Program-made: the position numbers and the translations under genes
Notes under the pieces: model-generated
The model's input: only the letters and a program-made list of their open reading frames with translations
Told to the model about the DNA's origin: nothing
Database searches by the model: none
Shown: in pieces, positions 33,874 to 52,451 of the stretch
How the letters are laid out: each line of letters starts with the position of its first letter
Position numbering within the stretch: the stretch's first letter is position 1
NCBI RefSeq assembly: GCF_017815515.1
Contig: NZ_CP072611.1
Location: forward strand, 3,596,001-3,660,000
Length of the DNA: 64,000 nucleotides
From: Aureimonas populi
GTDB lineage: Bacteria > Pseudomonadota > Alphaproteobacteria > Rhizobiales > Rhizobiaceae
Reading direction: 5' to 3'

Positions 33874-34506
33874 TCAAGCGGCCCGGTCGAACGACGGCAA
33901 CCCGCCCGTTTCCAGCAGGAACCGCAGCACCACGTCGAGGCCCTGGCTGCGCGAAAGGTCGGTGAAGACGGTCGGGCGACCTTGCCGGCCCTTTTCGGCA
34001 TCCCGCTCCATGCGCGTCAGGTCGGCCCCGACATAGGGCGCAAGGTCCGTCTTGTTGACGATGAGAAGGTCCGAGCGGGTGATGGCCGGCCCGCCCTTGC
34101 GCGGGATATCGTCACCCTGGCAGACCGAGATCACGTAGAGGGACAGGTCGACGAGGTCCGGCGAGAAGGTTGCGGCCAGATTGTCGCCGCCCGATTCCAC
34201 CAGCACGAGGTCGAGCCCGGGATGGCGCGCGTTCAGCCGCGCTATGGCCGACAGGTTGATGGAAGCGTCTTCCCGGATCGCCGTGTGCGGGCAGCCACCC
34301 GTCTCCACGCCCTCGATGCGGTCGGCCGGCAGGGCCTGCCGGCGCACCAGCGCCTCGGCGTCCTCCACCGTATAGATATCGTTGGTCACGACGCCGATGG
34401 ACCAGCGCTCGCGCGCCGCCACGCAAAGCTTTTCCACAAGCGTCGTCTTGCCGGAGCCGACGGGGCCGCCGATGCCGACGCGAAGGGGACCGTGCCTGTT
34501 CGTCAT
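33874..34506 (-). CDS. ureG: Urease accessory GTPase UreG
   Basis: 210 residues; SIMIBI-class GTPase that delivers nickel to apo-urease with UreE, UreF and UreD. The P-loop GPVGSGKT is at 14-21, [13 protein letters not shown] follows, [11 protein letters not shown] carries the nickel-binding CPH, and [15 protein letters not shown] and [15 protein letters not shown] complete the G motifs. It is the last gene of the minus-strand unit ureC-mliC-ureE-ureF-ureG and overlaps ureF by 4 bases. It has no His-rich N-terminal extension; the histidine store is on UreE instead. Confidence 0.96.
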
Positions 34507-35168
34507 GTGCGGAAAAGCCTCACCGGAAGGGATTCGTGCCGCATGGCGGCGATGTCGGACAGGATCGCCGATGAGCCGAGATCGTCAAGGGTGCTCATGC
34601 CGGCGCGGTGCGCCGCCCCGGCAATAACGGGCTCCAGCCGCTTCATCACCGCCACCGCCTCGCTCTGGCCGAGCGGCACGAGGCGCACCGCCGCCGAGAC
34701 GAGATTGGCCGCGAACGCATGGGCGTAAGCGGCGAGGATGTCGCCCTCACGCGCGCCGGACGCCGCCGCCCGCTCGGCCACCGCCAGCGGATAGGGCCTC
34801 GGCGCACCCGCCGCGCCCCAGGGCAGGCTCGCGCGGCCGAAGGCCTCGCCCAGCGCGCGCGTCTCCTCCCGCCGCTCCGCCGAGCCGGAAAGGGCCAGCG
34901 CCAGTTCCGCCAGTTCATCCAGCCCGGCTGCGTCCCGCGCCTCGGCCCGGCGCATCCCTTCGGCGAGAAGCACGAGATCGTTCCAGCCGCTGCCCTCGAG
35001 AACGAGCGTCTCGACCCAGTCGAACAGCGCCCCGGCGCTCGTTACCCGCCCTTGCGCGACGGCCGCTTCCAAACCGTGAGAATAGGCGAAGGCGCCGACC
35101 GGAAAGGCTGGGGAGAACCATGTGAGCAAGGTGAGAAGGCCGGGCGCGCCCTCCCCCTCAATGGTCAT
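34503..35168 (-). CDS. ureF: Urease accessory protein UreF
   Basis: 221 residues; all-helical protein that, with UreD and UreG, forms the activation complex on apo-urease. The N-terminal [21 protein letters not shown] is the family signature and [14 protein letters not shown] follows. Two in-frame ATGs are possible: 35168 ([10 protein letters not shown], used here, overlapping the ureE stop by 11 bases) and 35183 (five residues longer). Neither has a clearly better ribosome site. The stop overlaps the ureG start. Confidence 0.93.
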
Positions 35169-35655
35169 GCGAATGGGCGCCATGCCCGTGGGGATGGTGC
35201 CCCGCCTCGCCCTCGTGCACGTGGGCGGAAGCATAGGCTCCTCCGGCCGGATCGAAGGCGGCCTCCACCTCCTTCACCGTCCCGCCGAGGCCCTCCACCA
35301 TCTCGCGGATCACCCGGTCCTGGCGGATGAGAATGCGGGTCTCCTCGATGGCGGCGGCCAGGTGCCGGTTGCCCAGGTGCCAGGCGAGGTTCAGGAGGTG
35401 CACCGCATCGCGCCCGCGCACCTCGTAGAGCGCCTCCGGCTTCGCCTTCACCTCGATCACCCGCCCGTCATCGAGAAGGATGCCGTCGCCCTCGCGCAGG
35501 AGCCGGGCCTCCGGCAGATTCAGCAGGAAGGCGATACCCCCATCGGACACCATCGCCATGCGCCGGCGATGGCGCTGCCCCTCATCCAGCGTGATCGTAT
35601 CGGCGAAGTCCCCTGTGTGCCGGCCGCGCTCGACGACGTTCTCCGCGGCGATCAC
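35158..35655 (-). CDS. ureE: Urease nickel metallochaperone UreE
   Basis: 165 residues. The N-terminal peptide-binding domain includes DTITLDEGQRHRRRM and LLNLPEARLLREGDGILLDDG. The metal-binding domain has LLNLAWHLGNRHLAA with the conserved His. The tail [21 protein letters not shown] is a histidine-rich nickel store, as in Klebsiella UreE. The start is GTG at 35655, overlapping the mliC stop (GTGA); no nearby ATG gives the expected N-terminus. It sits between the lysozyme-inhibitor gene and ureF. Confidence 0.94.
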   Translation of the reverse strand: MIAAENVVERGRHTGDFADTITLDEGQRHRRRMAMVSDGGIAFLLNLPEARLLREGDGILLDDGRVIEVKAKPEALYEVRGRDAVHLLNLAWHLGNRHLAAAIEETRILIRQDRVIREMVEGLGGTVKEVEAAFDPAGGAYASAHVHEGEAGHHPHGHGAHSHDH

Positions 35656-36002
35656 GACGCGCTCTCCCGGCAGGTGACGGCCTGGGTGCCGGCCGTCTCG
35701 TCCTCCAGCGTCGCCTCCGCGCCCTTGGTCCACCACACCGAGGAGCCGGAGACATATTTCGCGCCGGACGCCGCGACCACGTTGACGAAGAGGCGGGCGC
35801 CGTCGCCCGGGTTCAGAAGCGCCAAGGAATTGTCTCCGATATTGATATATTCGGCCGTGCGCCGAACCTCGTCCGAGCACGCATAGCCTATCGTTTCGCG
35901 CTGCGCCTCGCCCGGAAGGTCGAGATCGAGCGCAAGCGCGCCTGTCGCAAACGCGGCAAGCGCCGTGCCGGCCAGCGCCGGCCTGATCCATAGAGCAGCC
36001 AT
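35652..36002 (-). CDS. MliC-type C-type lysozyme inhibitor
   Basis: 116 residues. A signal peptide (MAALWIRPALAGTALAAFATGALA) leads to the MliC domain: IGYACSDEVRRTAEYINIGD, ALLNPGDGARLFVN, SASGAKYVSG-like AASGAKYVSGSSVWWTKG, then ATLED and a final Cys. The WWTKGxEATLED block is the family's inhibitory loop region. Two cysteines would form the conserved disulfide in the periplasm. No lipobox is seen, so it resembles the soluble periplasmic form. It lies between ureC (62 bases) and ureE (4-base overlap), so it is translated from the urease transcript although it has no known part in nickel or urea chemistry. Confidence 0.82.
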   Translation of the reverse strand: MAALWIRPALAGTALAAFATGALALDLDLPGEAQRETIGYACSDEVRRTAEYINIGDNSLALLNPGDGARLFVNVVAASGAKYVSGSSVWWTKGAEATLEDETAGTQAVTCRESAS

Positions 36003-36064
36003 GAGGCGTTTCTCCCTGCGTTCCGCTCCTGCTAATCTAGCGCATTCGCGGCCGGAAAGAGGCG

Positions 36065-37777
36065 TCAGAACAGGAAGTAGCGCTGCGCCATCGGCAGCAC
36101 CTTCGCCGGCTCGCAGGTCAGGAGTTCGCCGTCGGCCCGCACCTCGTAGGTTTCCGGGTTCACCTCGATTTGCGGCGTGGCGTCGTTCAGCAGCATGGAG
36201 GCCTTGGAGATGCCGCCGCGCGTGTTGTGGACGGGCAGGAAGGCCTTCTCGCAGCCCAGCCGCTCGCGCAGCCCATCGTCCGCCGCCACCTGCGAGACGA
36301 AGGAGACGCCGCTCGCGCCCACCGCCTTGCCGAAGGCGCCGAACATGGGGCGGTAGTGCACCGGCTGGGGCGTGGGGATCGAGGCGTTGGGGTCGCCCAT
36401 GGGCGCGGCGACGATGGTGCCGCCGATGAGAACCATCATCGGCTTGACCGCGAAGAAGGCCGGGTCCCACAAGACGAGGTCGGCGCGCTTGCCGACCTCC
36501 ACCGAGCCGACCTCCCGCGAAAGCCCCTGCGCGATGGCGGGATTGATCGTCACCTTGGCAATGTAGCGCCGCACACGGAAATTGTCGTTCTCGCCGGTTT
36601 CCTGCGCCAGCCGGCCCCGCTGGCGCTTCATCTTGTCCGCCGTCTGGAAGGTGCGGATCAGAACCTCGCCGACGCGGCCCATGGCCTGCGAGTCCGAGGC
36701 GACGATGGAGAAGGCGCCGATGTCGTGGAGGATGTCCTCGGCCGCGATCGTCTCCTTGCGGATGCGGCTTTCGGCGAAGGCGATGTCCTCCGGGATGGAG
36801 GAGTCTAGGTGGTGGCACACCATGAGCATGTCGAGATGCTCCTCCAGCGTGTTCACCGTGTAGGGCCGCGTCGGATTGGTGGAGCCGGGCAGGACGTTGG
36901 GCAGGCCGCAGACCTTGATGATGTCCGGCGCATGGCCCCCGCCCGCCCCTTCCGTATGGAAGGCATGGATGGTGCGGCCCTTGAAGGCGCCGACCGTGTC
37001 CTCCACGAAGCCCGATTCGTTGAGCGTGTCGGTGTGGATCATCACCTGCACGTCGAAGGCGTCTGCCACCGAAAGGCAGCAGTCGATGGCAGCCGGCGTC
37101 GTGCCCCAGTCCTCGTGCAGCTTCAGCGCGCCCGCCCCGCCCTTGATCATCTCCTCCAGCGCCTGCGGCTGCGAGGCGTTGCCCTTGCCGGAGAGCACGA
37201 AGTTCATGGGGAAGGCGTCCAGCGCCTGGAGCATCCGCGCCATGTGCCAGGGGCCGGGCGTGCAGGTGGTGGCCAGCGTGCCGTGCGCCGGCCCCGTGCC
37301 CCCGCCCACCATGCAGGTGACGCCGGAAAACAGCGCCTCTTCGATCTGCTGCGGGCAGATGAAGTGTATGTGGCTGTCCACCCCGCCGGCAGTAAGAATC
37401 TTGCCCTCCCCGGCAATGGCTTCGGTCCCCGGCCCCACGATGATGGTGACGCCGGGCTGCGTGTCGGGGTTGCCGGCCTTGCCGATGGCGGCGATTCGCC
37501 CATCCTTCAGCCCCACATCGGCCTTGTAGATGCCGGTATGGTCCACGATCAGCGCGTTGGTGATGACGGTATCGACGGCGCCCTCCGCGCGGCTGGCCTG
37601 GGACTGCCCCATGCCGTCGCGGATGACCTTGCCGCCTCCGAACTTCACCTCCTCGCCATAGGTGGTGAGGTCCTTCTCCACCTCGATGAACAGCTCGGTG
37701 TCGGCAAGCCGCACCCGGTCGCCGACCGTCGGCCCGTACATGGCGGCATAGGTCGAGCGGGCAATTCTGGCGGGCAT
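36065..37777 (-). CDS. ureC: Urease alpha subunit
   Basis: 570 residues, full length. The dinickel site is complete: His136 and His138 (DSHIHFICP), the carbamylated Lys219 (GALKLHEDW), His248 (VMIHTD), His274 (AFHTEG) and the Asp in [12 protein letters not shown]. The active-site flap MVCHHLD holds Cys321 and His322. It hydrolyses urea to ammonia and carbamate. The start [17 protein letters not shown] fits the family. It begins the third urease block; the 134 bases upstream (37778-37911) are shared with a divergent small gene and should hold its promoter, since no urease gene lies directly upstream on the same strand. Confidence 0.97.
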
Positions 37778-37911
37778 GGGCAGATCTCCGGTGAACCGGG
37801 CGAGACAATAGGAAGATCGCAAAAGCTTGTCTTCCCCCAAGCGCACAACCATTTCACATTCAGGCGCAACGCCGCGACATGCCGTCTCGCGCCGCAGGAG
37901 AGCATCGGCCG

Positions 37912-38322
37912 ATGACACGAAAATGGGCAATCGCGGGAGCGCTCGCGCTGCTGGCCGCCGGCGGCTCGCACGCCTGGGCCCAGCCCTTCGAATCGGGCCC
38001 GCCGGGCACGGTGGTGGGAACCTCCCAGTCGGGCGCCCGGGTGGGGGGGGCGGTGCGGCTGAACACGCCGCGCGTTCCGAACGCAAGGGTCTTCGGCGAC
38101 ACGGTGGAGGAGCGGGCCTGGGGCCGGGACTATGACGACAGCCATCTGCGCCCCCGCGTGCCCCGGGCCACGGCCGATACGCCCATCGAGCTGCGCGCCC
38201 GCGAAGGCAGCTCGCGCCTCGATTCAGGCCGCGCCGGCTCCTTCGCGCGCGAGGGGCCGCGAGCCATCGGCGGCAGCTCCGTCACGCGCCCGGCGCTCGG
38301 CGCGCGGCGGATCGGGCGGTAG
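37912..38322 (+). CDS. Small secreted protein of unknown function
   Basis: 136 residues. A clear signal peptide ([23 protein letters not shown], cleavage before QPFES) precedes a basic, Arg/Gly/Pro-rich chain without recognised domain and without cysteines. ATG 37912 is chosen because the signal peptide starts there; an in-frame ATG at 37879 would add 11 residues. It runs against the urease genes, divergent from ureC across 134 bases. I do not recognise the family. Frame use (G/C at third positions) and the signal peptide support it being a real gene. Confidence 0.6.
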
Positions 38323-38401
38323 CGGAACGCTGCCCGTCGGGGTACGTTTCTCCCCCGACGCCCTCGCGTGGGGACCGATGATCTTCGAAGGAACCGTATC
38401 C

Positions 38402-38902
38402 ATGAAACCGCTTCTGGCACCCGCCGCCGCCGTCATCGTGAGCCTTGCCCTGGCGGCCCCGGCCGCAGCCCAGTTGTCCGGAAGCCCGGGCGGCACGTCC
38501 GCCGGCGGTGGAAGCAGCGTCGGCTCATCGGGCGGCCTGGGAACATCGACCGGCACCGGCGCCACGACCACGCCGGGCGCTTCGGGAACCGGTATTTCGC
38601 CCTCGCAAGGTGCAGGCGGAACTGGAGAGGGCGGGCTCTCCACGCAGGAGCGGGCGACGGAAGGCTCCACCAGCATCAACTCGATCAACGCCGATGCGGT
38701 GGCGCGCACGGGCAATGTCGGGGCGGCCACTTCGATCGGCGGCTCGGGCGGAACGGAGGCGGGTCAGGCTGCGGCCGGCGGTGCGCCGGCAGGCCGGGAG
38801 AAGGTCAACATTCCCCGCGCCTCCGTCGCCGTGGATCTGGGTGGGATTCGCGACGCGTTGGAAGCCGGCCCCAGCGCCACGCCGAAGGCCGACGGGCGCT
38901 AG
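38402..38902 (+). CDS. Gly/Ser/Thr-rich secreted protein of unknown function
   Basis: 166 residues. A signal peptide ([24 protein letters not shown]) is followed by about 60 residues of Gly/Ser/Thr repeats ([20 protein letters not shown] and similar), then [20 protein letters not shown] and a C-terminal [17 protein letters not shown]. No cysteines and no known domain. It is probably a periplasmic or surface linker-like protein. It lies 79 bases after the previous plus-strand gene, so the two may be co-transcribed. Its TAG stop shares the four bases CTAG (38899-38902) with the ureB stop on the other strand. Confidence 0.6.
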
Positions 38903-39204
38903 AGCGCGCCCATGATCTTGGCATTGAAGCCGTAGATCTTCCGTTCGCCCCCGATCGGCACGAGAGCGACCTCCCTCGCCTGCCCCGGCTCGAAGCGCAC
39001 CGCCGTGCCGGCGGGGATGTCGAGCCGCATTCCCCGCGCGCTGCCGCGGTCGAAGGACAGAGCGGGGTTGGTCTCCGCGAAATGATAGTGCGAACCGACC
39101 TGGATCGGCCGGTCGCCGGTATTGGCCACCGTCAACCGCGTGACCGGCGCGCCCTCGTTGAGAACGAGTTCGCCTTCCTTCGGCAGGACTTCGCCGGGAA
39201 TCAT
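38899..39204 (-). CDS. ureB: Urease beta subunit
   Basis: 101 residues. [18 protein letters not shown] is the standard N-terminus, and [16 protein letters not shown] and [21 protein letters not shown] are conserved blocks. It forms the trimer-of-trimers with UreA and UreC. Its ATG overlaps the stop of the ureJ-type gene (39201-39204). It is separated from ureC by two genes on the opposite strand and from ureA by ureJ plus another, which is unusual because ureABC are normally contiguous. Confidence 0.96.
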
Positions 39205-39773
39205 GCCTGCACCATCAGGACGAGTCCCGCCGCCGCCGTCGCGGCGCCCAGCCAGCGCGCGGGCGCTGCGCCGAACCGGGCCAGCCCGAGGCCCAGCGCG
39301 ATGCCCGAGCCATGGAGCATGGCGGTGGCGAGAACGAAGCCCGCACCATAGCCGAAGACGTCCGCGCCCCCGATCTCGCCGCCATGGGCATGGCCGTGGA
39401 ACAGCGCGAAACCGCCCACGATGAGCGCGCAGCCGGCCGCCGGCACGCGGGCGGCCATCGCCACGAGCAGGCCGAGCGCGACGACAGAGGCCAGGATCGC
39501 AGGCTCGACGAAGGGCAGCGGCACGCCGGCGAGCGCAAGGGCGAAGCCGGCCGCCATGGTTCCGACGAAGACCGCCGGCACGCGCCAGCGCGACCGCCCG
39601 CCCAGCATCGCCGCCCAGAGCCCGACGGCGACCATTGCGAGGATATGGTCGAGCCCGAAGAGCGGATGGGTAAAGCCGGCCATGAAGGAGCCATGCCCGG
39701 CCGGGTCGAGATGCGCATAGGCCGGAGCCGTTGCCGCCAGAAGCGCGATTGCGGCCGTCAAGGCACGTTTCAT
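39201..39773 (-). CDS. ureJ: HupE/UreJ-family nickel transporter
   Basis: 190 residues with a signal-like first segment ([20 protein letters not shown]) and six further hydrophobic segments. The family motif [19 protein letters not shown] (about 36-54) carries the metal-binding His/Asp, and [11 protein letters not shown] a second histidine cluster. It probably imports nickel for urease, acting in the inner or outer membrane. AGGAAAAGGGA precedes the ATG at 39773. It is paired with ureB through a 4-base overlap. The 257 bases upstream (39774-40030) separate it from a plus-strand gene and probably hold its own promoter. Confidence 0.9.
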
Positions 39774-40030
39774 GGTCTGTCCCTTTTCCTGCGCGCGGTG
39801 GCGCCGGTGCTTCGTCGCGGGCCGGTCCGGCGAAATGCCCGATTCCCGTCCCCACCAGGCGGTCATGATGGGCGGTGGCCCAACGCCTTGTCAAAAGGAA
39901 ACGAGCGCCCCGGATGCACCAGAAGCCGGCAGTTTTAAGCAAATGCTAACCAAGATGAACCGCAGGCCGCCTGCGGCGTTCTGTGCCCGACCGGGAGGAC
40001 GATGGATTGTGTCTCGCAAGGAGTGATTCG
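39774..40030. other. Intergenic region between divergent ureJ and a small secreted-protein gene
   Basis: 257 bases, the largest gap in the window. The part from about 39935 to 39965 is notably AT-rich for this genome (AGTTTTAAGCAAATGCTAAC), as expected for a promoter, but I cannot fit good -35/-10 boxes. AAGGAG at 40019-40024 serves the plus-strand gene starting at 40031. No open frame with a signal or known motif is seen. Confidence 0.5.
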
Positions 40031-40243
40031 ATGAGGAAGCCGATGGCCTTCGCGCTCGCCTTCGCCTCGGCCTTGATCGCCCTGTCGGCGGCCCCCGCCC
40101 CCGCCGGGCCGGGCGAGCCGCCGATCGTGCGTGTCGTGACTATCGACGGCGTCACCGGCCCCGCCTACTATTCCGTGGTCGAGAAGCGCTTCCGCTTCAT
40201 CGCGCCAGATGGCGCCGATCTGGCGTCCCTGCCGCAGGACTAA
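40031..40243 (+). CDS. Very small secreted protein of unknown function
   Basis: 70 residues: a signal peptide ([25 protein letters not shown]) and a mature part of about 45 residues ([23 protein letters not shown]...). No cysteines and no known family. The ATG is preceded by a strong AAGGAG 7 bases away, which supports expression. Its TAA stop (40241-40243) overlaps the ureA TAG stop of the other strand within CTAA at 40240-40243. It interrupts the minus-strand urease genes between ureA and ureJ. Confidence 0.6.
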
Positions 40244-40542
40244 CGGATCGGCTCGTGAACCGTCACGAGCTTGGTGCCGTCCGGGAAGGTGGCCTCCACC
40301 TGGACGTCGTGGATCATCTCGGCCACCCCCTCCATCACCTGCTCGCGCGTGATGACGTGCGCCCCGGCCTCCATCAAATCGGCGACGCTCCGACCGTCGC
40401 GCGCGCCTTCCACCACGAAGTCGGTGATGAGGGCGATGGCCTCGGGATGGTTGAGCAGGACGCCGCGCTCCAGCCGCCGCCGGGCCACGCTGGCGGCCAT
40501 GGAGACGAGGAGCTTGTCCTTCTCGCGCGGGGTCAGTTGCAT
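40240..40542 (-). CDS. ureA: Urease gamma subunit
   Basis: 100 residues. [23 protein letters not shown] is the family N-terminus, [20 protein letters not shown] and the C-terminal [18 protein letters not shown] complete it. It forms the urease trimer with UreB and UreC. It lies 25 bases after ureD on the same strand. Unlike most urease operons, ureB does not follow; a plus-strand gene begins where ureA ends. Confidence 0.97.
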
Positions 40543-40567
40543 GCGCCGGGGTCCTTTCCGTTGAGCC

Positions 40568-41392
40568 TCATAGCGACCATAGACGCGGAAGGGGCCCGTT
40601 TTCCAGAAGCGCGAGCGCAGGAACCAGCCGCCGCCGCAGTTCGATGCCCGAAGGCGCGACGAGGCGCGCGACGAGGAGGCCCTCCTCCAGCCGGCTCGCG
40701 CCGCCCGAGGGACCGAGCAGAGCGCGCAGGGCCGAAAGATCGCATCCGCTCCCGGTGGCCAGAACGGTGGCGAAGGCGCGATGGCCGGCCAGGCCGGCCG
40801 CCCGCGCGGTCTGGCCCGCGAGATCGCCATGAAGGCGCAGATTGTCCGCGAAGACGAGGCGCCCGGCGAGACGAACGCGCCAGCGCTCCTCCAGAAGCCC
40901 CTCCGCCACCGATTCGCCCATCGCCTCGCGGCCGAGAATGACGCTTTCGCAAAGCAGCAGGCGGCTTCCCGCCTCCGCGTCGACATCGAGCCGCCGCGAC
41001 AGGCGCCCTCCGTCGAACAGGATGGTTTCCTGCGGCAGCCAGGAGAATCCGGCCCCGGCCGCTACCGATACGCCCGTGCGGACCGTGGCCGCCGCGCCCA
41101 GGGACCGGTAGACGCGCTCGGCGGCCTGCGTCGTCACGCAAAGATGGCCCGCCTCCTCCACCGCGAAGGACTGGTCGAGCCTGTCCCCGCCCGCGAGGCC
41201 GCCGGCCGTGTTCACGAGCACGGCTTGGGCCGGCCCGGCCCCCACCTTGGGAAAGCGCAGCTTCAGGCAGCCCTCCTGGCGCAGGCGGGAGAGGCGCGTT
41301 CGCCCCTCGCGCTGGCGCATCGTGGCTTGCACGGCCCCACGCGCGCGCTGCAAGGAGGGAGCGCCGCCGATCTGCGGCAGGGAATGTTCCAA
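40568..41392 (-). CDS. ureD: Urease accessory protein UreD
   Basis: 274 residues; scaffold of the UreDFG activation complex. Family blocks are [66 protein letters not shown] and [14 protein letters not shown]. No ATG exists at the expected N-terminus. I choose TTG at 41392 because the conserved [12 protein letters not shown] stretch must be included. An ATG at 41320 (250 residues) would cut it off. It starts 9 bases after the kinase stop, so it is probably coupled to that gene. Confidence 0.92.
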
Positions 41393-41400
41393 GATGGGGT

Positions 41401-42054
41401 TTACTGCGCCGCCTCGAAGAGGTCGCACTCCTCGGGCCGGTGCGCGGGGGTCACCTCCCGGCCCGGCACCGTGCCGCCCGCCAGCCGGCGGCCGGCCATG
41501 GCGAGGTCCGAGGGACCGGCGATGAAGACGCGCGTTGCCGGATGGAGCTGGCGCACGAAGGACGGGTCGACCACGCCCGCGGCCGAAACGGCATCGAGGT
41601 CGCGCCCCTCCGGCAGGTCGATCTGCTTGATGAGACAGAGGCTGGCGCCGGGATAACGGCCCGCAAGCCAAGCGGCCAGGCTGTCGGAGGTGGTGCTCCA
41701 GTCATGGTGGATTTCACCGGCCTGCAGCACCAGCTTGGCAGGCATCCAGACCGGGACCAGCCCGTCGTCCAGAGCCTTGCCGATGGCCTCCTGCGTGGCG
41801 ACGGGCACCAGCTTCTCGCCCAGGCTCACCAGCGCGCGGCCGAACTGCTCCATGGCCAGGATCGCCATGTGATGCGCGGCATCGTCGTCATAGCCCACCT
41901 GTGCCTGATAATCGCGCACGACATCGGCGAACGGCCCCCCGCCGGGCACGAGGATCAGCGGGCGCTGGCTTTCTTCCATCGCCCGCACCCAGCGGACGAG
42001 GTCTGGCGGGGAAATCGAACTTCCACCGAATTTGACGATCAGAATATCGTCCAT
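41401..42054 (-). CDS. Amino-acid-kinase-fold protein, MfnE-like (methanofuran-type cofactor kinase)
   Basis: 217 residues of the amino acid kinase superfamily, closest in pattern to the archaeal COG2054/MfnE group: ILIVKFGGSSISPP, LVPGGGPFADVVRDYQ, HHMAILAMEQFG and HHDWSTTSDSLAAWLAG. Archaeal MfnE phosphorylates 5-(aminomethyl)furan-3-yl methyl phosphate in methanofuran synthesis. Bacterial homologues occur in methylotrophs with the tetrahydromethanopterin/methylofuran C1 pathway. It follows the MfnB-like/FolB fusion after 126 bases and is followed 9 bases later by ureD. Family placement is good; the exact bacterial reaction is inferred. Confidence 0.8.
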   Translation of the reverse strand: MDDILIVKFGGSSISPPDLVRWVRAMEESQRPLILVPGGGPFADVVRDYQAQVGYDDDAAHHMAILAMEQFGRALVSLGEKLVPVATQEAIGKALDDGLVPVWMPAKLVLQAGEIHHDWSTTSDSLAAWLAGRYPGASLCLIKQIDLPEGRDLDAVSAAGVVDPSFVRQLHPATRVFIAGPSDLAMAGRRLAGGTVPGREVTPAHRPEECDLFEAAQ

Positions 42055-42180
42055 CTCTGAACCTCTCCGCGTTACGCGATGCGACAGGCAGGCGATGTCA
42101 TTCTGCCATTATTCAGACACGTTTGACCAGCCTGCGGTTCCTTCAATTCGTCGTTGCGCCGCAAAAGCGCGGTGCGGCGT

Positions 42181-43005
42181 TCAGGTCGGAAGCCGCCGCC
42201 GCACGATCTCCACGCCGGCAATCAGCGGTCCGAGATCGAGCTTCTCCACCTTGACCGTCACCGAGTCCAGGCGCGGGTCCCGCAGGAGGTCCGCGGCCAG
42301 TTCCTCAGCCAGCGTCTCCACCAGATCGGTATGGCCCCGGGCCGCCAGCTCGCGCACCGCGTCCATCATCCGGTCGTAGGAATAGACCTCGCCGAGGCCA
42401 GCCACTCCCCCGCCGGCCGGCGCGACCTGCGCCTCCAGCGAGAAGCGCACGCGTTGCAATCGCCCGCGCTCTCCGCCATAGGCGCCCACCGCCATCTCCT
42501 GCACGAAATCGCGCACGAAGACGCGGTCGGGCACCGTCCCCGGCTCCACTGGCCGCACCCGAGGCGGGTCCATGAGCGCCAGCAGGGCCCGGCAGGCCCC
42601 GGCATCGAATGCCCCCTCCCGGCGCAGCGCTTCCCCGAAGCCCAGAAGGTCCGGGCGCAGCGGCAGGAGGCGGGGCACGTCGGCCGGCTCCAGCGCCCCG
42701 GCAAAGCCGAAAGGGAGGCCCCGCGCGCGGCAGAGCGCCGCAAAGCGCGAGGCTTCCGCGAAGCTGTGCCGCGCGAAGAAGGGCCCGCCCCGCTCCGTCA
42801 GGATCGCCAGATTCCCGCCTCGATCCGCCGCCGCGTCGAGCGCGGCGGGCCACTCGCTCTCGTCCGCTTCGACGAAGGCGGCCGGCACACGATTCCCGCC
42901 AGCGTCCAGAACCGCGCCGGCCGGCATCTCCACCAGCACCGCCCCGGCCGCGAAGGCCGCGCCGGCCTCGTCCTCCCGCGCAAGCGAGGCCAGAAGCTTC
43001 GTCAT
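42181..43005 (-). CDS. Fusion: degenerate MfnB-like domain + FolB-type dihydroneopterin aldolase
   Basis: 274 residues. Residues 60-150 resemble the C-terminal part of (5-formylfuran-3-yl)methyl phosphate synthase (MfnB/DUF556): GLPFGFAGALEPADVPRL and LRPDLLGFGEAL match the ALAGSL...IPKL...GVRGA pattern. The lysines used by MfnB are not seen, since the equivalent of VKNP reads VEMP, and the domain is about 150 instead of 235 residues. Residues 158-274 are FolB-like: DRVFVRDFVQEMAVGAYGGER, VYSYDRMMDAV, HTDLVETLAEELA and VTVKVEKLD. It sits in a minus-strand run with a stand-alone Lrp-type domain upstream and the MfnE-like kinase downstream, suggesting C1-cofactor synthesis. FolB is confident; the MfnB link is moderate. 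Confidence 0.72.
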   Translation of the reverse strand: MTKLLASLAREDEAGAAFAAGAVLVEMPAGAVLDAGGNRVPAAFVEADESEWPAALDAAADRGGNLAILTERGGPFFARHSFAEASRFAALCRARGLPFGFAGALEPADVPRLLPLRPDLLGFGEALRREGAFDAGACRALLALMDPPRVRPVEPGTVPDRVFVRDFVQEMAVGAYGGERGRLQRVRFSLEAQVAPAGGGVAGLGEVYSYDRMMDAVRELAARGHTDLVETLAEELAADLLRDPRLDSVTVKVEKLDLGPLIAGVEIVRRRLPT

Positions 43006-43042
43006 CCGGCCGCCCGGCCCCGGCCGTCGGCGAGGCTCCGGC

Positions 43043-43288
43043 TCAACGGCCGAAGGCCTTGAACGCGACGGTGGTGAAGGTATCGGACACGCCGTCCACG
43101 GTCTGGAGCCGCTCGGTGACGAAATGGCCGATATCGGCCTCCTCGCCCAGATAGAATTTGGCGATCAGGTCGAACTGGCCGGAGGTGGAATGAACCTCCG
43201 AGAGCTCCTCCACCGTCTCGGCGATGGTGTCCGCCACCTTGTAGGCGCGGCCGGGACGACATTTGAACTGAACGAAAATGGTCTTCAC
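43043..43288 (-). CDS. Stand-alone Lrp/AsnC ligand-binding domain protein
   Basis: 81 residues: KTIFVQFKCRPGRAYKVADTI, VEELSEVHSTSGQFDLIAKF and DGVSDTFTTVAFKAF are the RAM/AsnC effector domain, without the helix-turn-helix. Such proteins form rings that bind amino acids or other small ligands and may modulate full-length Lrp proteins. The start is GTG at 43288, which begins the conserved domain; an upstream ATG would add 13 unrelated residues. It lies 37 bases before the MfnB-like/FolB fusion on the same strand and may share its transcript. Confidence 0.8.
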   Translation of the reverse strand: MKTIFVQFKCRPGRAYKVADTIAETVEELSEVHSTSGQFDLIAKFYLGEEADIGHFVTERLQTVDGVSDTFTTVAFKAFGR

Positions 43289-43396
43289 CGGCCGGCTCCC
43301 ATGCGATGCGTCGCCGTCTCGTATCAAAGCGCCGCCATCCCCGTCAAAGGCGCGAGGCGGACGGAGAGGCCGGCCCGGCGCGCTCTTCGGCGGGCA

Positions 43397-44215
43397 TCAA
43401 TCCACGAAGGCGCGTTCCACCACGTAGGTGGCGGGCTTGGAGTTGGCGCCCTCCTCCAGCCTGTTGGCCTCCAGCAGTGCCGCCGTGTCCTTGAGCATGG
43501 CCATGGATCCGCAGATCATCGCGCGGTCGGTGGCCGGGTCGAGCCTCGGCACGCCCAGTTCGTCGAACAGCTTGCCGTTCTCGATCAGCGTCGTGATGCG
43601 CTCGCCACGGGTCTCCCCGTCCCGCGTGGCCGAGCCGAAATAGCGCAGCTTGTCGCCCACCACCTCGGACAGGATCTCGTCGGTGCGCGTCGCCTCCACC
43701 AGGTCGCGGCCATAGGTCAGCTCCTCCCGCGTGCGGCAGGTGTGGGTGAGGATGACCTCCTCGAACTTCTCGTAGGTCTCCGGGTCGCGCACGATGCCGG
43801 CGAAGGGCGCGATGCCCGTGCCGGTGGAGAAGAGATAGAGCCGCTTGCCGGGGATCAGCGCGTCCAGCACGAGCGTCCCGGTCGGCTTCTTGCGCATCAG
43901 CACCGTGTCGCCGACCTTGATCTTCTGAAGATGCTCCGTCAGCGGGCCGCCCGGCACCTTGATGGAGAAGAACTCCAGCTCCTCGTCCCAGGCGGGGCTG
44001 GCGATGGAATAGGCGCGGAAGACCGGCTTCTCGGCATTGGGCAGGCCGATCATGGCGAACTCGCCCGTGCGGAAGCGGAAGCTGGCGGGCCGCGTCATGC
44101 GGAACATGAAGAGGCTGTCGGTGTAGTGCCGCACCTGCGTCACCGTTTCGGCGAACACGTTGGCGGGGATCGGGAAGGCGGTCTCGGTCTGTTTCGCTTC
44201 GACGACGGCGTTCAT
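43397..44215 (-). CDS. fpr: Ferredoxin/flavodoxin--NADP+ reductase
   Basis: 272 residues of the bacterial plant-type FNR family. FAD domain: FRFRTGEFAMIGL, RAYSIASPAWDEELEF and GPLTEHLQKIKVGD. NADP domain: LFSTGTGIAPFAGIVRDPE, LTHTCRTREELTY and MICGSMAML. The C-terminus ends VVERAFVD, typical of subclass I bacterial FPRs with an aromatic residue near the end. It exchanges electrons between NADPH and ferredoxin or flavodoxin in the cytoplasm. It appears to be a single-gene unit, with 108 bases to the Lrp-type gene and 183 bases upstream. Confidence 0.94.
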   Translation of the reverse strand: MNAVVEAKQTETAFPIPANVFAETVTQVRHYTDSLFMFRMTRPASFRFRTGEFAMIGLPNAEKPVFRAYSIASPAWDEELEFFSIKVPGGPLTEHLQKIKVGDTVLMRKKPTGTLVLDALIPGKRLYLFSTGTGIAPFAGIVRDPETYEKFEEVILTHTCRTREELTYGRDLVEATRTDEILSEVVGDKLRYFGSATRDGETRGERITTLIENGKLFDELGVPRLDPATDRAMICGSMAMLKDTAALLEANRLEEGANSKPATYVVERAFVD

Positions 44216-44398
44216 GAGTGGCGGACCTTCGGATGTTCGTCGGATCGGGCGCGGCACGACGTGCCGTTCATGGCATGGCGCCGGCGCACGAAAGGGCGCG
44301 CGGGCACGGGATCGCGCGAGCGTTTTGCCGCAGAACGGCCCGTAACGCCAGAACGGATTTTGCTCCATGCCGCCGCGAAGGCGAAAAAGCATGCGCCC

Positions 44399-45613
44399 TC
44401 ACCCGCGCCGCAGGGACGGCTCCGGCGGCAGCAGGATCGTCAGAAGGCCGAGCAAGGGCAGGAAGGAGCAGATCACGAACACCGTCTCGATCCCGCGCGC
44501 ATCGGCCACGGCCCCGAGCACCGCCGCCCCGATCCCGCCCATGCCGAAGGCGAAGCCGAAGAAGATGCCCGCCACGAGCCCGACGCGCCCGGGCATCAGC
44601 TCCTGCGCAAAGACCACGATGGCCGAGAAGGCGGAGGAGAGGATCAGCCCGATCGCCACCGTCAGCACCGCCGTCCAGAACAGGTCCGCATAGGGCAGCG
44701 CCAGCGTGAAGGGCAGGACGCCCAGGATGGAGAACCAGATCACCGCCTTGCGGCCGATCCTGTCCCCCAGCGGGCCGCCCAGCAGCGTGCCGAGCGCGGC
44801 CGAGGCCAGGAACAGGAAGAGCAGGATCTGGCTCTGGCGGATGGACACGCCGAAGACCTCGATCAGGTAGAAGGTGTAGTAGCTCGACAGGCTGACCGTG
44901 TAGATCTGCTTGGAAAAGACCAGCAGCGCCAGGATGAGGACGGCGAACGCCACCCGCCCGCGCGAGAGGCCCGGCGAGACCAGCGGCGCGAGCTTGGCTC
45001 CCGCGCGCGCCAGATGCTGCGCCTTCGCCCATGTCCCCACCTTCCACAGCACGATCATGCCCAGAAGCGCGAGCGCGCCGAACCAGGCGACGGACGGCTG
45101 GCCGAGCGGCAGGACGACATAGGCCGCCAGCAGCGGCCCCATCGCCGTGCCGGTGTTGCCCCCCACCTGGAAGATCGACTGCGCGAACCCGTAGCGCCCC
45201 CCGGAGGCGGCCCGCGCGACGCGCGAGGCGTCGGGATGGAAGATCGAGGAGCCGATTCCGATGGCGGCCGCGGCGATGAGAAGCACGGCGTAGCTGTGCG
45301 CGCCGGCAAGGATGAGCAGCCCCACCAGGCTGAAGCCCATGCCGAGCGTCAGCAGGCGGAAGCGCGGGCGCCTGTCGGTCCAGAAGCCGACGGCCGGCTG
45401 CAGCAGCGAGGCGGTGACCTGGAAGGTGAAGTGCAGGATCCCGATCTGCGTGAAGGTCAGCGCATAGTTCGCCTGCAGCACGGGGTAGAGCGCGGGCAGG
45501 AGCGACTGGATCGTGTCGTTCAGAAGATGGCAGAGGCTCAAGGCGAACAGGACGGCGAAGGTCGTCCGGTTCGCGGCCTGGCCCTGCGGTGCGCGCGTGG
45601 CAGCCACACTCAT
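44399..45613 (-). CDS. MFS transporter, fosmidomycin-resistance (Fsr) type
   Basis: 404 residues with twelve hydrophobic segments. SLCHLLNDTIQSLLPALYPVL near the N-terminus and IFHPDASRVARAASGGRYGFAQSIFQVGGNTGTAMGPL are characteristic of Fsr-like exporters, and TDRRPRFRLL is the loop 2-3 motif. The start at 45613 (MSVAATRAPQG) gives a short cytoplasmic lead; upstream in-frame codons are unconserved. Members export fosmidomycin and other compounds, but the natural substrate here is unknown. It is flanked by 183 and 101 bases of non-coding DNA and is probably monocistronic. Confidence 0.88.
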   Translation of the reverse strand: MSVAATRAPQGQAANRTTFAVLFALSLCHLLNDTIQSLLPALYPVLQANYALTFTQIGILHFTFQVTASLLQPAVGFWTDRRPRFRLLTLGMGFSLVGLLILAGAHSYAVLLIAAAAIGIGSSIFHPDASRVARAASGGRYGFAQSIFQVGGNTGTAMGPLLAAYVVLPLGQPSVAWFGALALLGMIVLWKVGTWAKAQHLARAGAKLAPLVSPGLSRGRVAFAVLILALLVFSKQIYTVSLSSYYTFYLIEVFGVSIRQSQILLFLFLASAALGTLLGGPLGDRIGRKAVIWFSILGVLPFTLALPYADLFWTAVLTVAIGLILSSAFSAIVVFAQELMPGRVGLVAGIFFGFAFGMGGIGAAVLGAVADARGIETVFVICSFLPLLGLLTILLPPEPSLRRG

Positions 45614-45714
45614 GTCCTCACCCCCCGCCTTCCTCCCGCCCGGCACGGCGCATGCTCCCCGGGTGCCGGCCCGCCTACGAAGCGCGGCCATAAGCTCCCC
45701 TTAGCGCTTTCCCG

Positions 45715-47136
45715 TCAAGAGGGAATGCGCCCGCGCAGGACCTTGCCGGGGTTGAACAGCCCTTGCGGGTCGAGCGTCGCCTTGATGGTCTCCATCAGCC
45801 TGAGCTTGCCCGCGTCGCCCGTCGCATAGAGCGGGTCGATGCGCTTGGCGCCGATGCCGTGCTCGGCCGAGAAGCAGCCCCCCGAAGCCTTCAACGTCCG
45901 GTAGAGCACGTCCTCCACCCGCGCCACGAGTCCAGCGTCCAGCGGGCCGGCACGGTTCAGGAGAAGGTGGATGTTGCCATCCGCCAGATGGCCGAAGATA
46001 TAGGGCTCGAATTGCGGGTCGATGGCCTTCAGTTCCGCCTCGATCCGCGCCACGTAAGCGGCGATCTCCGATTGCGGCAGCGACACGTCGAAGGCGGGTG
46101 AGCCCGGATAGCGCCGGAACACCGCCTCGGTGTCCTCGCGCAGGCGCCACAGCTCGGCCTCCTGCCGGGACGAGCTGGCGATGAGGCCGGTGATGTCCGG
46201 GTAGCGCTCGGCCACCGTCTCGAACAAGGCCTCGAAGGCGCCTTTCAGGGCATCCTCGTCCCGCCCGCCGAGCGACAGGAGAAGGTAGAGCGGCGCGTCG
46301 AGCGGCACGGCGGGGTCCGACCAGCCGTGCTCGTCGGCCGTGAAGCGGATATAGGAGTTCCACATCGCCTCGGCGGCGCGCAGTTCGCCCGCCTGCGGCT
46401 CCAGCGCCAGCCGGATCGTGTCCAGCAGCGCCGACACGTCCGGCATGGAGAACAGCGCCGTCGCGCTGGCGGCGGGCTTGGGATAGAGCTTGATGGACGC
46501 GGCGGTCACGACGCCGAGCGTGCCTTCCGCGCCGATCAGGAGGTGCTTGACGTCGTAGCCCGCCGAGGTCTTCACCACACGCGTCAGGTCCGACAGCACC
46601 GTGCCGTCCGCCACCACGGCCTCCATGCCGAAGACCTGATGGCGCATCACTCCGTTGCGGAAGGCCAGAAGGCCGCCCGCATTGGTGGAGATCATGCCGC
46701 CGATGGTGGCCGAGCCGCGGGCGGGAATGTCGATGCCGGGCTCCAGCCCGTGCGCGGCGGCGGCCTCCTGCAAGGCCTCCAGCGTGACGCCGGCCTCCAC
46801 CACGGCCACGCGCTCCACCGGATCCAGCCGCAGGATGCGGTTCATGCGCGCGGTGGAGAGGACGATCTGCCCGCCGCGCGAGATGCCCCCACCCACGAGC
46901 CCCGTGCGCCCGCCATGCGATACGATGGGTACACCCGCCTGAAGGCACGCCCGCACGACGCGCGCCGTCTCGTCCGTCGAGCCGGGCGAGACCACGAGGC
47001 CGGCGGCGAGATTGTCCTCGTGCTGGCCGGGATGGATGAGGCCCACCGCCTCCCCTCCCCGCAGCCCCTGCGGGCCGACGATATCGGCAAGCGCCTCGGC
47101 AAAGCCGGCAGGCAGGGTGGAGATGGGCGTATCCAT
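45715..47136 (-). CDS. FAD-binding 2-hydroxyacid oxidoreductase (GlcD/D2HGDH-like)
   Basis: 473 residues. The PCMH-type FAD domain shows GLVVSPGSTDETARVVRACL, PIVSHGGRTGLVGGG, EAGVTLEALQEAAAAHGL, RGSATIGGMISTNAGG and IGAEGTLGVVTAASIKL. The C-terminal FAD-oxidase domain ends in CFSAEHGIGAKRIDPLY, where the His binds substrate and flavin. Homologues oxidise D-2-hydroxyglutarate, D-lactate or glycolate. The substrate cannot be fixed from sequence; glyoxylate/glycolate metabolism downstream of AllA is a possible but unproven link. No glcE or glcF follows, so the single-protein dehydrogenase type is favoured. Confidence 0.88.
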   Translation of the reverse strand: MDTPISTLPAGFAEALADIVGPQGLRGGEAVGLIHPGQHEDNLAAGLVVSPGSTDETARVVRACLQAGVPIVSHGGRTGLVGGGISRGGQIVLSTARMNRILRLDPVERVAVVEAGVTLEALQEAAAAHGLEPGIDIPARGSATIGGMISTNAGGLLAFRNGVMRHQVFGMEAVVADGTVLSDLTRVVKTSAGYDVKHLLIGAEGTLGVVTAASIKLYPKPAASATALFSMPDVSALLDTIRLALEPQAGELRAAEAMWNSYIRFTADEHGWSDPAVPLDAPLYLLLSLGGRDEDALKGAFEALFETVAERYPDITGLIASSSRQEAELWRLREDTEAVFRRYPGSPAFDVSLPQSEIAAYVARIEAELKAIDPQFEPYIFGHLADGNIHLLLNRAGPLDAGLVARVEDVLYRTLKASGGCFSAEHGIGAKRIDPLYATGDAGKLRLMETIKATLDPQGLFNPGKVLRGRIPS

Positions 47137-47194
47137 GGTCGGGCTCCTTCACGCGCGAGGCTTTAAGCCCCCGGCCGAGCTGCGAAAAGCCCTA

Positions 47195-48864
<1,670 letters not shown>

Positions 48865-48868
<4 letters not shown>

Positions 48869-49668
48869 CGGTCAAGCCCTTTCAGTTCGGTGGCGAGCGC
48901 CGCGAGGCGCTGGAGAATCATGGCCAGGGGCGCGCGCAGGCGCTCGCCCTTCGCCTCGTCATAGGCGAAGGGCGGAGCCTCGCTCGCCAGATGCGTCGCC
49001 TGCGCCAGCTCCATCTGGATCGTGTGGACGCCCTCCTGCGGGCGGGCGTAATGGCGCACCGTCCAGCCGCCCCTGAAGCGGCCGTTGAGGACGCTGGTGT
49101 AGCCTTTCGCCGCCTCGCAGACCTCCCGCGCCGCCGCTTCGATGCGCGGGTCGCAGCTACGCCCGCCATCCGTGCCGATGTTGAAGTCGGGCAGCCGCCC
49201 CTCGAACAGGAAGGGAATGGTCGAGCGGATCGAATGGCAGTCATAGAGGATGACGACGCCGTGCAGCGCCCTCACCCTCTCGATCTCGGCCGCGAGCGCC
49301 GCGTGGTAGGGCGCGTGGAACGCGGCCAGCCGGCGCGCGACCTCGGCCTCGTCCGGCTCCCGCGCCCAGATCGGCGCCCCGTCGAAATCCGTCGTCGGCA
49401 CGAGGCCGGTGGTGTTCTGTCCCGGATAGAGGCTGGCGCCGGACGGGTCGCGATTGGCGTCGATCACATAGCGGTGGAAGGTCGCGCGCACGCTCGTCGC
49501 GTCTTCCGGCAATCCGTCATAGAGGCGGTGAATATGCCAGTCCGTGTCGCGCAGCCGCCGCCCCTCCTCGTTGAGGTGCTCGAAGACCTCGGGCGGGACA
49601 TGCGTTCCCGTATGCGGCAGGCCGAGGATGACGGGCGATGAGCCCCGGCGGACTTCGACGACGCTCAC
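48865..49668 (-). CDS. hutG: N-formylglutamate deformylase
   Basis: 267 residues; hydrolyses N-formyl-glutamate to glutamate and formate. Blocks [72 protein letters not shown] and [12 protein letters not shown] are typical of the FGase family. Start GTG 49668 overlaps the hutH stop (GTGA). No hutF (formiminoglutamate deiminase) is seen in the window, yet HutG implies the five-step route that needs it; hutF may lie elsewhere. The formate released could link to C1 metabolism. Confidence 0.93.
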
Positions 49669-51206
49669 GACGTTTCCTCCAGGGCGGGCAGGATGCCGGG
49701 GGAGATGGAGGCGGCCAGCGCGCCGGAGGAGACGAGTTCGGCCGCGCGCGCCAGGTCGCCGGCCATGTAGCGGTCCTCCTCCAGCGTCGGCACCACGGCG
49801 CGGATCGCCGCATGGGCCTGCAAGAGTTCGGCGCCGGTCTTCAGCGGCGCGCGGAACTCCACCCCCTGCGCGGCCGTCAGCGCCTCGATGCCGATGATGC
49901 CGGCCAGATTGTCGGTCATCAGAAGCAGCCGCCGCGCGCCGTGGCAGGCCATGGAGACGTGGTCTTCCTGGTTGGCGGAGGTGGGCGTGGAATCGACGCT
50001 CGCCGGATGCGCCATCTGCTTGTTCTCGCTCATGAGCGCGGCGGAGGTGACTTCCGCGATCATCAGCCCGGAATTGAGGCCGGGGTTCTTCGCCAGGAAC
50101 GCCGGCAGGCCGAAGGACAGCGCCGGGTCCACGAGCAGCGCCACGCGCCGCTGCGCGATGGCCCCGATCTCGCAGATGGCGAGCGCGATCTGGTCGGCGG
50201 CCAGCGCCACCGGCTCGGCATGGAAATTGCCGCCCGAAACGACCGAGCCGTCCGAGAGCACCAGCGGGTTGTCCGTCACCGCATTGGCCTCCACCACCAG
50301 CGTGCGCGCCGCCTGCCGCAGAAGGTCGAGGCAGGCCCCGTCCACCTGCGGCTGGCAGCGGATGCAGTAGGGGTCCTGCACCCGCTCGTCGCCGGTGAGA
50401 TGGCTTTCGCGGATCTGCGAGCCGTCCAGCAGAGCGCGCAGCGCCCGCGCCGTGTCGATCTGGCCGCGATGACCGCGAAGCGTGTGGATATCCGGGTGGA
50501 AGGGGGCCGAGGAGCCCATCGCCGCGTCCGTGGAGAGCGCGCCGGTGATCAACGCCGCCTCTCCCGCGCGGTGGGCGCGGAACAGGCCCGCGAGCGCGAG
50601 CGAGGTGGAGACCTGCGTGCCGTTGATGAGGGCCAGCCCCTCCTTGGCCGCGAGAGTGACCGGCCGGAGGCCCGCCTCGCGCAGCGCCTCGCCGGCGGGG
50701 CGGCGCACGCCCTCCACCGTCACCTCGCCCTCGCCGATCATCGCGGCGGCCATGTGGGCGAGCGGAGCGAGGTCGCCGGAGGCGCCGACCGAGCCCTGCC
50801 CCGGGATGACGGGCAGGATGCCCTTTTCCAGCATCGCCTCGATCAACGCGACGATGACGGGCCGCACGCCCGAGGCCCCGCGCCCCAGCGAGATGAGTTT
50901 CGTCGCCATGACCAGCCGCACGATCTCCGGCGCCAGCGGCGCGCCGACGCCGCAGCAATGCGACAGGATGAGATTGCGCTGGAGCGTTTCGACATCCCCC
51001 GGCGCGATGCGCACGCTGGCGAGCTTCCCGAAGCCGGTGTTGATGCCGTAGACGGCCGCATCCCCGGCCGCGATCTCCGCGATGCGCCCGGCGGCGGCCT
51101 TTACGGCCGGGCCGCAGGCGGGATCGAGCCGCACGGCCTCGTCTCCCCGATAGATGCGCTCCAGCGTCGCGAGCGACACCGCTCCGGGCTTGAGAAGAAT
51201 GGTCAT
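49665..51206 (-). CDS. hutH: Histidine ammonia-lyase
   Basis: 513 residues; removes ammonia from L-histidine to form urocanate. The MIO cofactor triad Ala-Ser-Gly is at 142-144 ([14 protein letters not shown]). Tyr53 in [22 protein letters not shown], and the C-terminal [21 protein letters not shown] are conserved active-site regions. Length matches the family. It overlaps hutI and hutG by 4 bases each. Cytoplasmic tetramer. First committed enzyme of the hut pathway. Confidence 0.97.
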
Positions 51207-52411
51207 GCGGCCTCGTCCTTGATGAGCCGGTGAAGCGGGTTGAAGCCGATGCGGTAGGCAAGCTCGGCGGGGTGTTCCACGTTCCAGACGGCGAGTTCCG
51301 CCCGGCGGCCGGGCGCGATCGTGCCGATCTCGCCCTGGAGCCCCAGCGCGCGCGCCGCCTCGCGCGTGACGCCCGCCAGCGCCTCTTCGGGCGTCAGGCG
51401 AAACAGCGTCGCGCCCATGTTCATGGTGAGCAGCAGCGAGGTGAGCGGCGAGGTGCCGGGGTTGCAGTCCGTGGCGAGCGCGATGGGAACGCCGGCCTCG
51501 CGCAGGGCCGCCACGGGCGGTGCCTGGCGTTCGCGCAGCGTGTAGAAGGCGCCCGGCAGGAGCACGGCGACGGTGCCGGCCCCGGCCATCGCCTCGATGC
51601 CGGCCGGCGAGAGATATTCCAGATGATCGGCCGAAAGCGCGCCGAACTCGGCCGCCAGCGCCGCGCCGCCCAGATCCGAGAGCTGCTCGGCGTGAAGCTT
51701 GACCGGCAGGCCGAGGCTTCGTGCGCGCTCGAACACGCGGCGCGTCTCCTCCACCGAAAAGGCGATGCCCTCGCAGAAGGCGTCCACCGCGTCGATCAGC
51801 CCCTCGGCGGCGCCCCGCTCCATGCCGGGCAGCACCACCTCGTCGAGATAGTCTCTCGCCCGGCCCTTGTATTCCGGCGGCAGGGCATGGGCGGCCAGCC
51901 AGCTCGTGCGCACGCGCACGCCGCGCGCCGCGCCCAGCCGGCGCGCCACGCGCAGCATCTTCAATTCGTCCTCGACCGTCAGCCCGTAGCCGGACTTGAT
52001 CTCGACGCTCGCCACGCCCTCCGCCAGAAGCGCGTCCAGGCGCGGCAGGGCGCCCTGGAACAGGGCCTCCTCGCTTGCCGCGCGCGTGGCCGAGACGGTG
52101 GAGACGATGCCCCCGCCCGCCCGCGCGATCTCCTCGTAGCTCGCGCCCTCGAGGCGCATCTCGAACTCGCGCGCGCGATTGCCGCCGAAGACGAGATGGG
52201 TATGGCAATCCACAAGGGCCGGCGTGACGAGCCGCCCGTCGAGGCCCTCGGCCGCCATGCCCCGCCATTCCCCCGGCAGGCCGGCGCGCGGCCCGGCCCA
52301 GGCGACGCGCCCGCCCTCCAGCGCGACCGCCGCGTCCTCCACGAGGCCGTAGGGCGCGCGCCCCGGCTCCATCGTGGCGAGCGTCAAATCGAGAAGGAGG
52401 CGCTTGGTCAT
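51203..52411 (-). CDS. hutI: Imidazolonepropionase
   Basis: 402 residues of the amidohydrolase superfamily; opens imidazolonepropionate to N-formimino-glutamate. [28 protein letters not shown] holds the HxH metal ligands, [11 protein letters not shown] and [13 protein letters not shown] follow, and [12 protein letters not shown] holds the catalytic Asp region. The start is taken at ATG 52411 (MTKRLLLD); an ATG six codons earlier (52429) is also possible and neither has a strong ribosome site. It is the first gene of the hut unit, divergent from hutC, behind a HutC-like operator. Confidence 0.96.
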
Positions 52412-52451
52412 GGTGCACACACCGATCATTCCGTTTGAGTCCGGACGCTAT

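Follow-up and report, generated by a model that had tools for sequence, protein, structure and literature searches.

What becomes of a bifunctional enzyme once one of its two pathways disappears? The question is raised by a gene of Aureimonas populi, at 42181..43005 on the minus strand of the 64,000-nucleotide window (the whole stretch of DNA analysed here), which fuses an MfnB-derived pseudoenzyme domain (residues 1 to about 150) to a FolB-type dihydroneopterin aldolase (residues about 158-274). Together with its relatives, the gene provides a natural replicate experiment on this fate. We consider it probable that the protein descends from a bifunctional MfnB-FolB fusion whose MfnB half died after pathway loss and has been kept as a scaffold against FolB. 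Passages of published work give Orf22, Orf21 and Orf9 of Methylorubrum extorquens as homologues of MfnB, MfnE and MfnF (PMC8141765), and H4MPT/methanofuran gene loss in bacterial lineages is discussed in excerpts of another source (PMC5020050).

Domain composition of the fusion protein

The open reading frame begins with ATG and encodes 274 amino acids. Its rear domain, residues 158-274 (42184..42534, minus strand), has the dihydroneopterin aldolase fold, conserves the catalytic-type residues E179, Y210, E230 and K255, and matches the Pfam FolB family over residues 162-258 with 52.2 bits against a gathering cut-off of 31.8, which bears out the FolB-like character given to this region in a preliminary description of the DNA. 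The protein is FolB-family by fold, residues and Pfam, though its 45.3 bits fall under the equivalog cut-off of 72.15 for NCBIfam folB (TIGR00525).

The front domain, residues 1-150 (42556..43005, minus strand), matches Pfam 4HFCP_synth (PF04476, MfnB) over residues 72-128, corresponding to profile positions 154-210 of 228, with 30.1 bits against a gathering cut-off of 22.4. The protein carries the motifs VEMP (residues 25-28), FAGALEPADVPRL (101-113) and DLLGFGEAL (119-127), the latter two of which, with the Pfam match, agree with the earlier reading of a C-terminal MfnB pattern in residues 60-150. Profile-profile comparison links the domain to MfnB at 96.4-99.6%, and its best barrel match is MfnB itself; the derivation from MfnB proposed at the outset holds on all three counts. 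At about 150 residues this front part falls short of a full TIM barrel (about 235 residues), and its alignment covers 145 of the 236 residues of 4rc1. About 85-90 barrel residues are missing, close to the shortfall of about 85 first estimated. Matches to urate oxidase and GTP cyclohydrolase were not accepted as kinship.

An independent origin, in which FolB joined an unrelated small alpha/beta domain that resembles MfnB, could appeal to the Pfam threshold being passed by residues 72-128 only. It is extremely improbable in view of the profile-profile and barrel matches and of the homologous fusions, with the same kinase alongside, that grade from intact to decayed within one genus. The MfnB origin of the front half and the FolB identity of the rear are confirmed. 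The name MfnB is still unsuitable for the window protein because MfnB's catalytic residues fail despite the descent, and the annotation of short proteins such as P0040 and P0048 as '(5-formylfuran-3-yl)methyl phosphate synthase', which would wrongly imply methylofuran synthesis, is corrected here.

Catalytic positions of MfnB

Besides three residues described in print, we take Lys85 and Asp151 to be active-site positions of MfnB. Passages of the published work name Lys27 as the Schiff-base former (PMC6604932) and Lys155 as a catalytic or substrate-binding residue, and discuss Arg217 as a possible phosphate contact (PMC11365854). None of the five (K27, K85, D151, K155 and R217) is matched in the window protein. 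The preliminary description had placed the loss of the catalytic lysine in a change from VKNP to VEMP; VEMP does stand at residues 25-28, but ungapped alignment puts the column of Lys27 on P28 and not on the glutamate of VEMP. Its remark that the other expected lysines are also missing was right for K85 and K155.

When the intact fusion P0013 is aligned to 4rc1, lysines and an aspartate occupy MfnB's catalytic places. Across 72 fused proteins, read at five columns of one MAFFT alignment, all five residues are kept by each of the 37 main copies that come from FTR-positive genomes (a non-random set made up of five from the genus, G035 and G040, plus the 30 loci with the best scores). None of the 32 copies from FTR-negative genomes has the full set, nor does any of three second copies. 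The 32 FTR-negative fusions have all lost K155 and R217; position 151 is aspartate in 20 of them, and K27 and K85 are lysine in two each. The family sample described below has 64 full-length members, of which 33 were read, and 23 reduced ones, of which 22 were read, G651 being excluded as a contig-end fragment. Judged by these residues, the front half of the window protein is almost certainly non-catalytic.

Co-occurrence with pathway partners

The A. populi genome (G000), one contig of 3,822,311 bases, contains a single PF04476 match. A PF04476 search of the whole contig returned no second full-length mfnB, settling a point that the preliminary description had raised, and the idea of a full MfnB elsewhere in the genome was dropped. 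Searches of the same genome gave no matches for FTR, MCH or MfnF. Among 61 genomes (A. populi and 60 relatives), nine have full-length MfnB, exactly those nine have MCH and MfnF, and FTR occurs in the nine plus G036. The FTR of G036 (L058, G036:C21:57383-57805) lies at the end of a contig; that genome has no matches for MfnB, MCH or MfnF, and the FTR possibly represents a stray contig or a partial pathway. The genus divides into five intact and 16 decayed genomes (n = 21), and the decayed form is present in G025 and G026, from other genera, as well.

A family sample of 394 genomes, overlapping with the 61 (G000, G004, G006-G010, G013, G025, G026, G035 and others), includes 66 that are FTR-positive. 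Of these, 64 have an MfnB match of at least 180 bits, divided across two frames in G469; the exceptions are G777, which is 65% complete and has MfnB in pieces, and G036, which has none. The 328 FTR-negative genomes include none with MfnB at 180 bits or more and 23 with reduced matches; a further six (G432, G654, G668, G696, G731 and G741) score below the Pfam cut-off, and their matches were treated as chance. Separately, in a sample of the order, genus g119 (e.g. G279 and G342) has full-span but very divergent PF04476 proteins of 53-70 bits, alongside a normal member, G239, at 189 bits.

The FolB half and folate synthesis

E179, Y210, E230 and K255 presumably correspond to the FolB catalytic residues Glu22, Tyr54, Glu74 and Lys100, and they are invariant in all 72 rows of the fused-protein alignment. 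The titles of Yersinia DHNA structure entries record mutation of Tyr53 and Lys98. One FolB match was found in the A. populi genome and one per genome in 21 of 21 in the genus. FolK is matched in all 21 too, and on that ground a substitution of FolK by the retained kinase, discussed below, was dropped as a candidate.

Outside the window, folP and folK of A. populi lie adjacent with an overlap of a few bases and no folB between them (L145:5105-6462, G000:C1). All 21 genus genomes have an approximate folP-folK gap of -7 to 23 nt, compared with 366-566 nt in six family relatives in which a standalone folB sits there; G026 and G035, both outside the genus, also have short gaps. The fused FolB is of the E-K-L-D/E sequence type found beside unfused MfnB, the folate-operon type being R-K-P-N/S-A. 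This gap and this FolB type suggest that folate synthesis in the genus most likely depends on an aldolase brought with, and inherited from, the C1 pathway. The FolB half, as the only FolB found, most likely has this role in the window's organism. The tie to C1-cofactor synthesis proposed in the preliminary description is therefore unsupported, there being no FTR, MCH or MfnF match and the sole FolB most likely serving folate.

A conserved segment in the MfnB-derived domain

The best-kept front columns in the decayed lineages correspond to window residues 103-114, where 9 of 12 are conserved at 0.87-1.0 with lineage weighting. They include residues 106-114 (EPADVPRLL; 42664..42690, minus strand), the window's form of a fusion-associated E-x-P-D-x-P-R-L-L in which Ala108 replaces the first proline. 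The string E-x-P-D-x-x-R is present in 42 of the 44 intact fused proteins and in 32 of the 35 decayed ones, and none of the 23 unfused bacterial MfnBs has it; for the stricter E-x-P-D-[IVL]-P-R the counts in these three groups are 40, 30 and 0. The window segment fails both strings because of Ala108, with E, D, P and R kept, and is one of five FTR-negative rows, out of 32, without the strict form. The aspartate and arginine (D109 and R112 of the window protein) are found in 35 of 35 decayed fusions. As single letters, the 23 unfused proteins have the aspartate in seven, the second proline in seven and the arginine in one. The two 'fused' intact rows that lack the segment, G110 and G320, come from one genus or near kin. 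Their linker is long, and they may have arisen by separate joinings or be read-through open frames.

These counts indicate that the segment accompanies fusion and outlives catalysis. An interface with FolB is the simplest reading that we infer from them. The fused proteins may all belong to a single clade, in which case the segment could be an inherited mark unrelated to fusion.

Constraint on the decayed half

Simple pairwise NG86 counts give the decayed front domain a dN/dS of 0.05-0.57 wherever dS could be estimated (dS is saturated in three of 13 decayed pairs, which yield no ratio), and the front domain of intact pairs 0.05-0.43. Within this range, decayed Aureimonas other than A. populi and its partner G006 have 0.05-0.34, and the other measurable decayed pairs 0.11-0.33. 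The pair G000/G006 stands at 0.55-0.57, with dS about 1.1 and a FolB ratio of 0.31, and thus constraint is weakest in the window's own lineage.

The front domain could be a neutral relic, persisting only as an in-frame leftover on an essential FolB and having no role. The ratio of 0.55 in G000/G006 is what such a relic might have; so are the loss of about 85-90 residues, the broken catalytic set of every FTR-negative fusion read, and a front dN that exceeds FolB dN by a median ratio of 2.1 in decayed pairs versus 1.6 in intact pairs. We nevertheless regard this explanation as unlikely. The low ratios of the other measurable decayed pairs and the conserved columns at 103-114 speak against it, as do two confident predicted models with compact domains. 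Not one of the 35 decayed rows has lost its front domain entirely, a count to be read with FolB-only descendants outside the reach of this search.

A further explanation is that the shrunken barrel acquired a binding role, holding a pterin, a phosphate or a protein ligand and so regulating FolB. Conserved front stretches near GADYVLAP and LLLDPxRxLLR, which most of the 14 decayed Aureimonas besides G000/G006 have in common, would fit such a role; G000/G006 do not share these stretches, and few front columns besides 103-114 are common to the decayed lineages. We judge the binding role quite unlikely. The preliminary description had offered a non-catalytic remnant and a new role as alternatives: decay where the pathway was lost agrees with the former, but the two are not exclusive, with constraint in most lineages measured and one segment kept. 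Our preferred reading, a dead half retained as a scaffold, draws on the same decay having occurred several times in relatives.

Number of decay events

The FolB-domain tree contains eight changes between the intact and decayed states (6-9 in bootstraps); its well-supported branches alone force two, and several branches are long. Both states, assigned by score, are present within each of genera g1, g189, g197, g201 and g223, which points to several decay events across the family. Within Aureimonas, a tree of the folP-folK block (1750 columns) places G000 and G006 beside the five intact genomes (89/91), splitting them from the other decayed genomes, and a single decay event in the genus was dropped as a clear-cut account. 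A single decayed clade has a p-AU of 0.091, above rejection, with G035 covering just 40% of the columns, and all decayed rows of the genus come together in a quick kinase tree. The block tree suggests two losses in the genus as the better-supported option.

Decay need not always follow pathway loss, since three genomes that keep FTR and a full-length copy carry decayed second MfnB-FolB copies beside them (L261, G707b; L262, G770b; L263, G555b). These probably arose by gene duplication, after which one MfnB half decayed. All three second copies belong to g201, where G475 groups with G707b, and in that genus decay may have followed duplication and not pathway loss.

Neighbourhood and the MfnE-like kinase

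The next gene downstream, at 41401..42054 (minus strand), encodes an MfnE-like kinase of the amino-acid-kinase family, with 217 residues, 43.4 bits to Pfam AA_kinase and 69.5 bits to NCBIfam MfnE (NF040622), below the equivalog cut-off of 300. It is followed by a UreD region (urease accessory gene; 40568..41422, minus strand, by Pfam, with a provisional start codon), a place occupied in the intact relatives read by a C1 gene cluster and not by UreD. Upstream of the fusion lies a small Lrp/AsnC-like protein (43043..43327, minus strand, family name judged from sequence), a conserved neighbour among the decayed Aureimonas loci compared. In the wider region, 33874-52418, the fusion stands between urease genes and histidine-utilisation-like genes, the names again being judged from sequence, with UreD by Pfam. 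In G006, about 3.3 kb separate the fusion from the kinase (L131:9129-12305) and hold three genes, one of them for a LysR-like regulator, all judged from sequence; this insert is absent from the other decayed genus loci compared.

The kinase was matched in all 21 genus genomes searched, though 16 of them are without intact MfnB, MfnF, MCH and FTR. Identity to the window's kinase is 57-78% among the 20 other genus genomes, 15 decayed ones included, and kinase dN/dS is 0.01-0.17 in decayed pairs and 0.03-0.15 in intact pairs. Of 33 columns conserved to at least 95% in 39 kinases from intact-MfnB genomes, 22 (including K8, the GGS and PGGG motifs, D124 and K143) are kept to at least 95% in 18 kinases from decayed loci, and 11 drift in some rows. 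G025 and G026 gave no kinase match, and among the other decayed loci read, only G677 and G465 have a kinase within about 2 kb. G465 (L266/L267; L256:3-1049) also has an MfnF homologue, 54% identical to the G004 protein, beside its decayed MfnB-FolB and kinase; no FTR was found in this genome.

Both the conserved adjoining kinase and the MfnF homologue of G465 might suggest that the window protein still makes the furan or acts in C1-cofactor synthesis. With three lysines missing, and with no FTR, MCH or MfnF match in the genome, this is very improbable. The orphan kinase is itself a clear target for study, as a cofactor-pathway enzyme conserved where the remaining pathway is not found. We tentatively entertain, as a possibility short of an even chance, a broader account in which repeated pathway loss left an MfnB pseudoenzyme, shortened in Aureimonas, on which selection acts as a scaffold where the cell's sole FolB docks via the segment that arrived with the fusion, and the kinase (with MfnF in one lineage) selected for a second substrate outside methylofuran synthesis.

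A proposed history of the fusion

We infer the following order of events. In the ancestral fusion, the front half would have made the furan of methylofuran, and the rear half would have cleaved 7,8-dihydroneopterin to 6-hydroxymethyl-7,8-dihydropterin. Loss of a standalone folB from the folP-folK operon is proposed to have left the fused FolB as the sole one. When the H4MPT/methylofuran formaldehyde pathway was subsequently lost, the MfnB half would have become dispensable and the FolB half would have stayed indispensable. The MfnB half may then have lost its catalytic residues and, in Aureimonas, part of its barrel. What is left would serve FolB as a folded scaffold, with the segment around E106-D109-P111-R112 as the probable point of contact. 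The trapped partner domain would thus die catalytically, might shrink, and would retain mainly one segment.

Comparison with known systems

Full-length fusions are already in databases under mixed names, either dihydroneopterin aldolase or (5-formylfuran-3-yl)methyl phosphate synthase. In the open PMC literature, a scope that leaves most subscription papers outside, we found no publication on the MfnB-FolB fusion or its decay, and no paper joining dihydroneopterin aldolase with methanofuran or Aureimonas with tetrahydromethanopterin.

The front domain resembles MfnB, (5-formylfuran-3-yl)methyl phosphate synthase (PF04476; archaeal MJ1099, bacterial Orf22), in fold and in the C-terminal third of its sequence. 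Unlike MfnB, the window protein lacks K27, K85 and K155 and is about 85-90 residues shorter, in a genome with no FTR, MCH or MfnF match. The bacterial full-length MfnB-FolB fusions, for example those of Jiella, Aurantimonas and five Aureimonas genomes, share its domain order, segment and, at the loci read, neighbouring kinase; those read differ in having all five MfnB residues (37 of 37) and in coming from FTR-positive genomes. Compared with FolB, 7,8-dihydroneopterin aldolase (PF02152), the window protein carries an extra front domain, and its sequence is of the type neighbouring unfused MfnB. A bifunctional folate enzyme of Streptococcus pneumoniae (2cg8, by title) likewise has FolB within a two-domain protein. 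In that protein the partner is a folate enzyme, whereas in the window protein it is the dead enzyme of another pathway.
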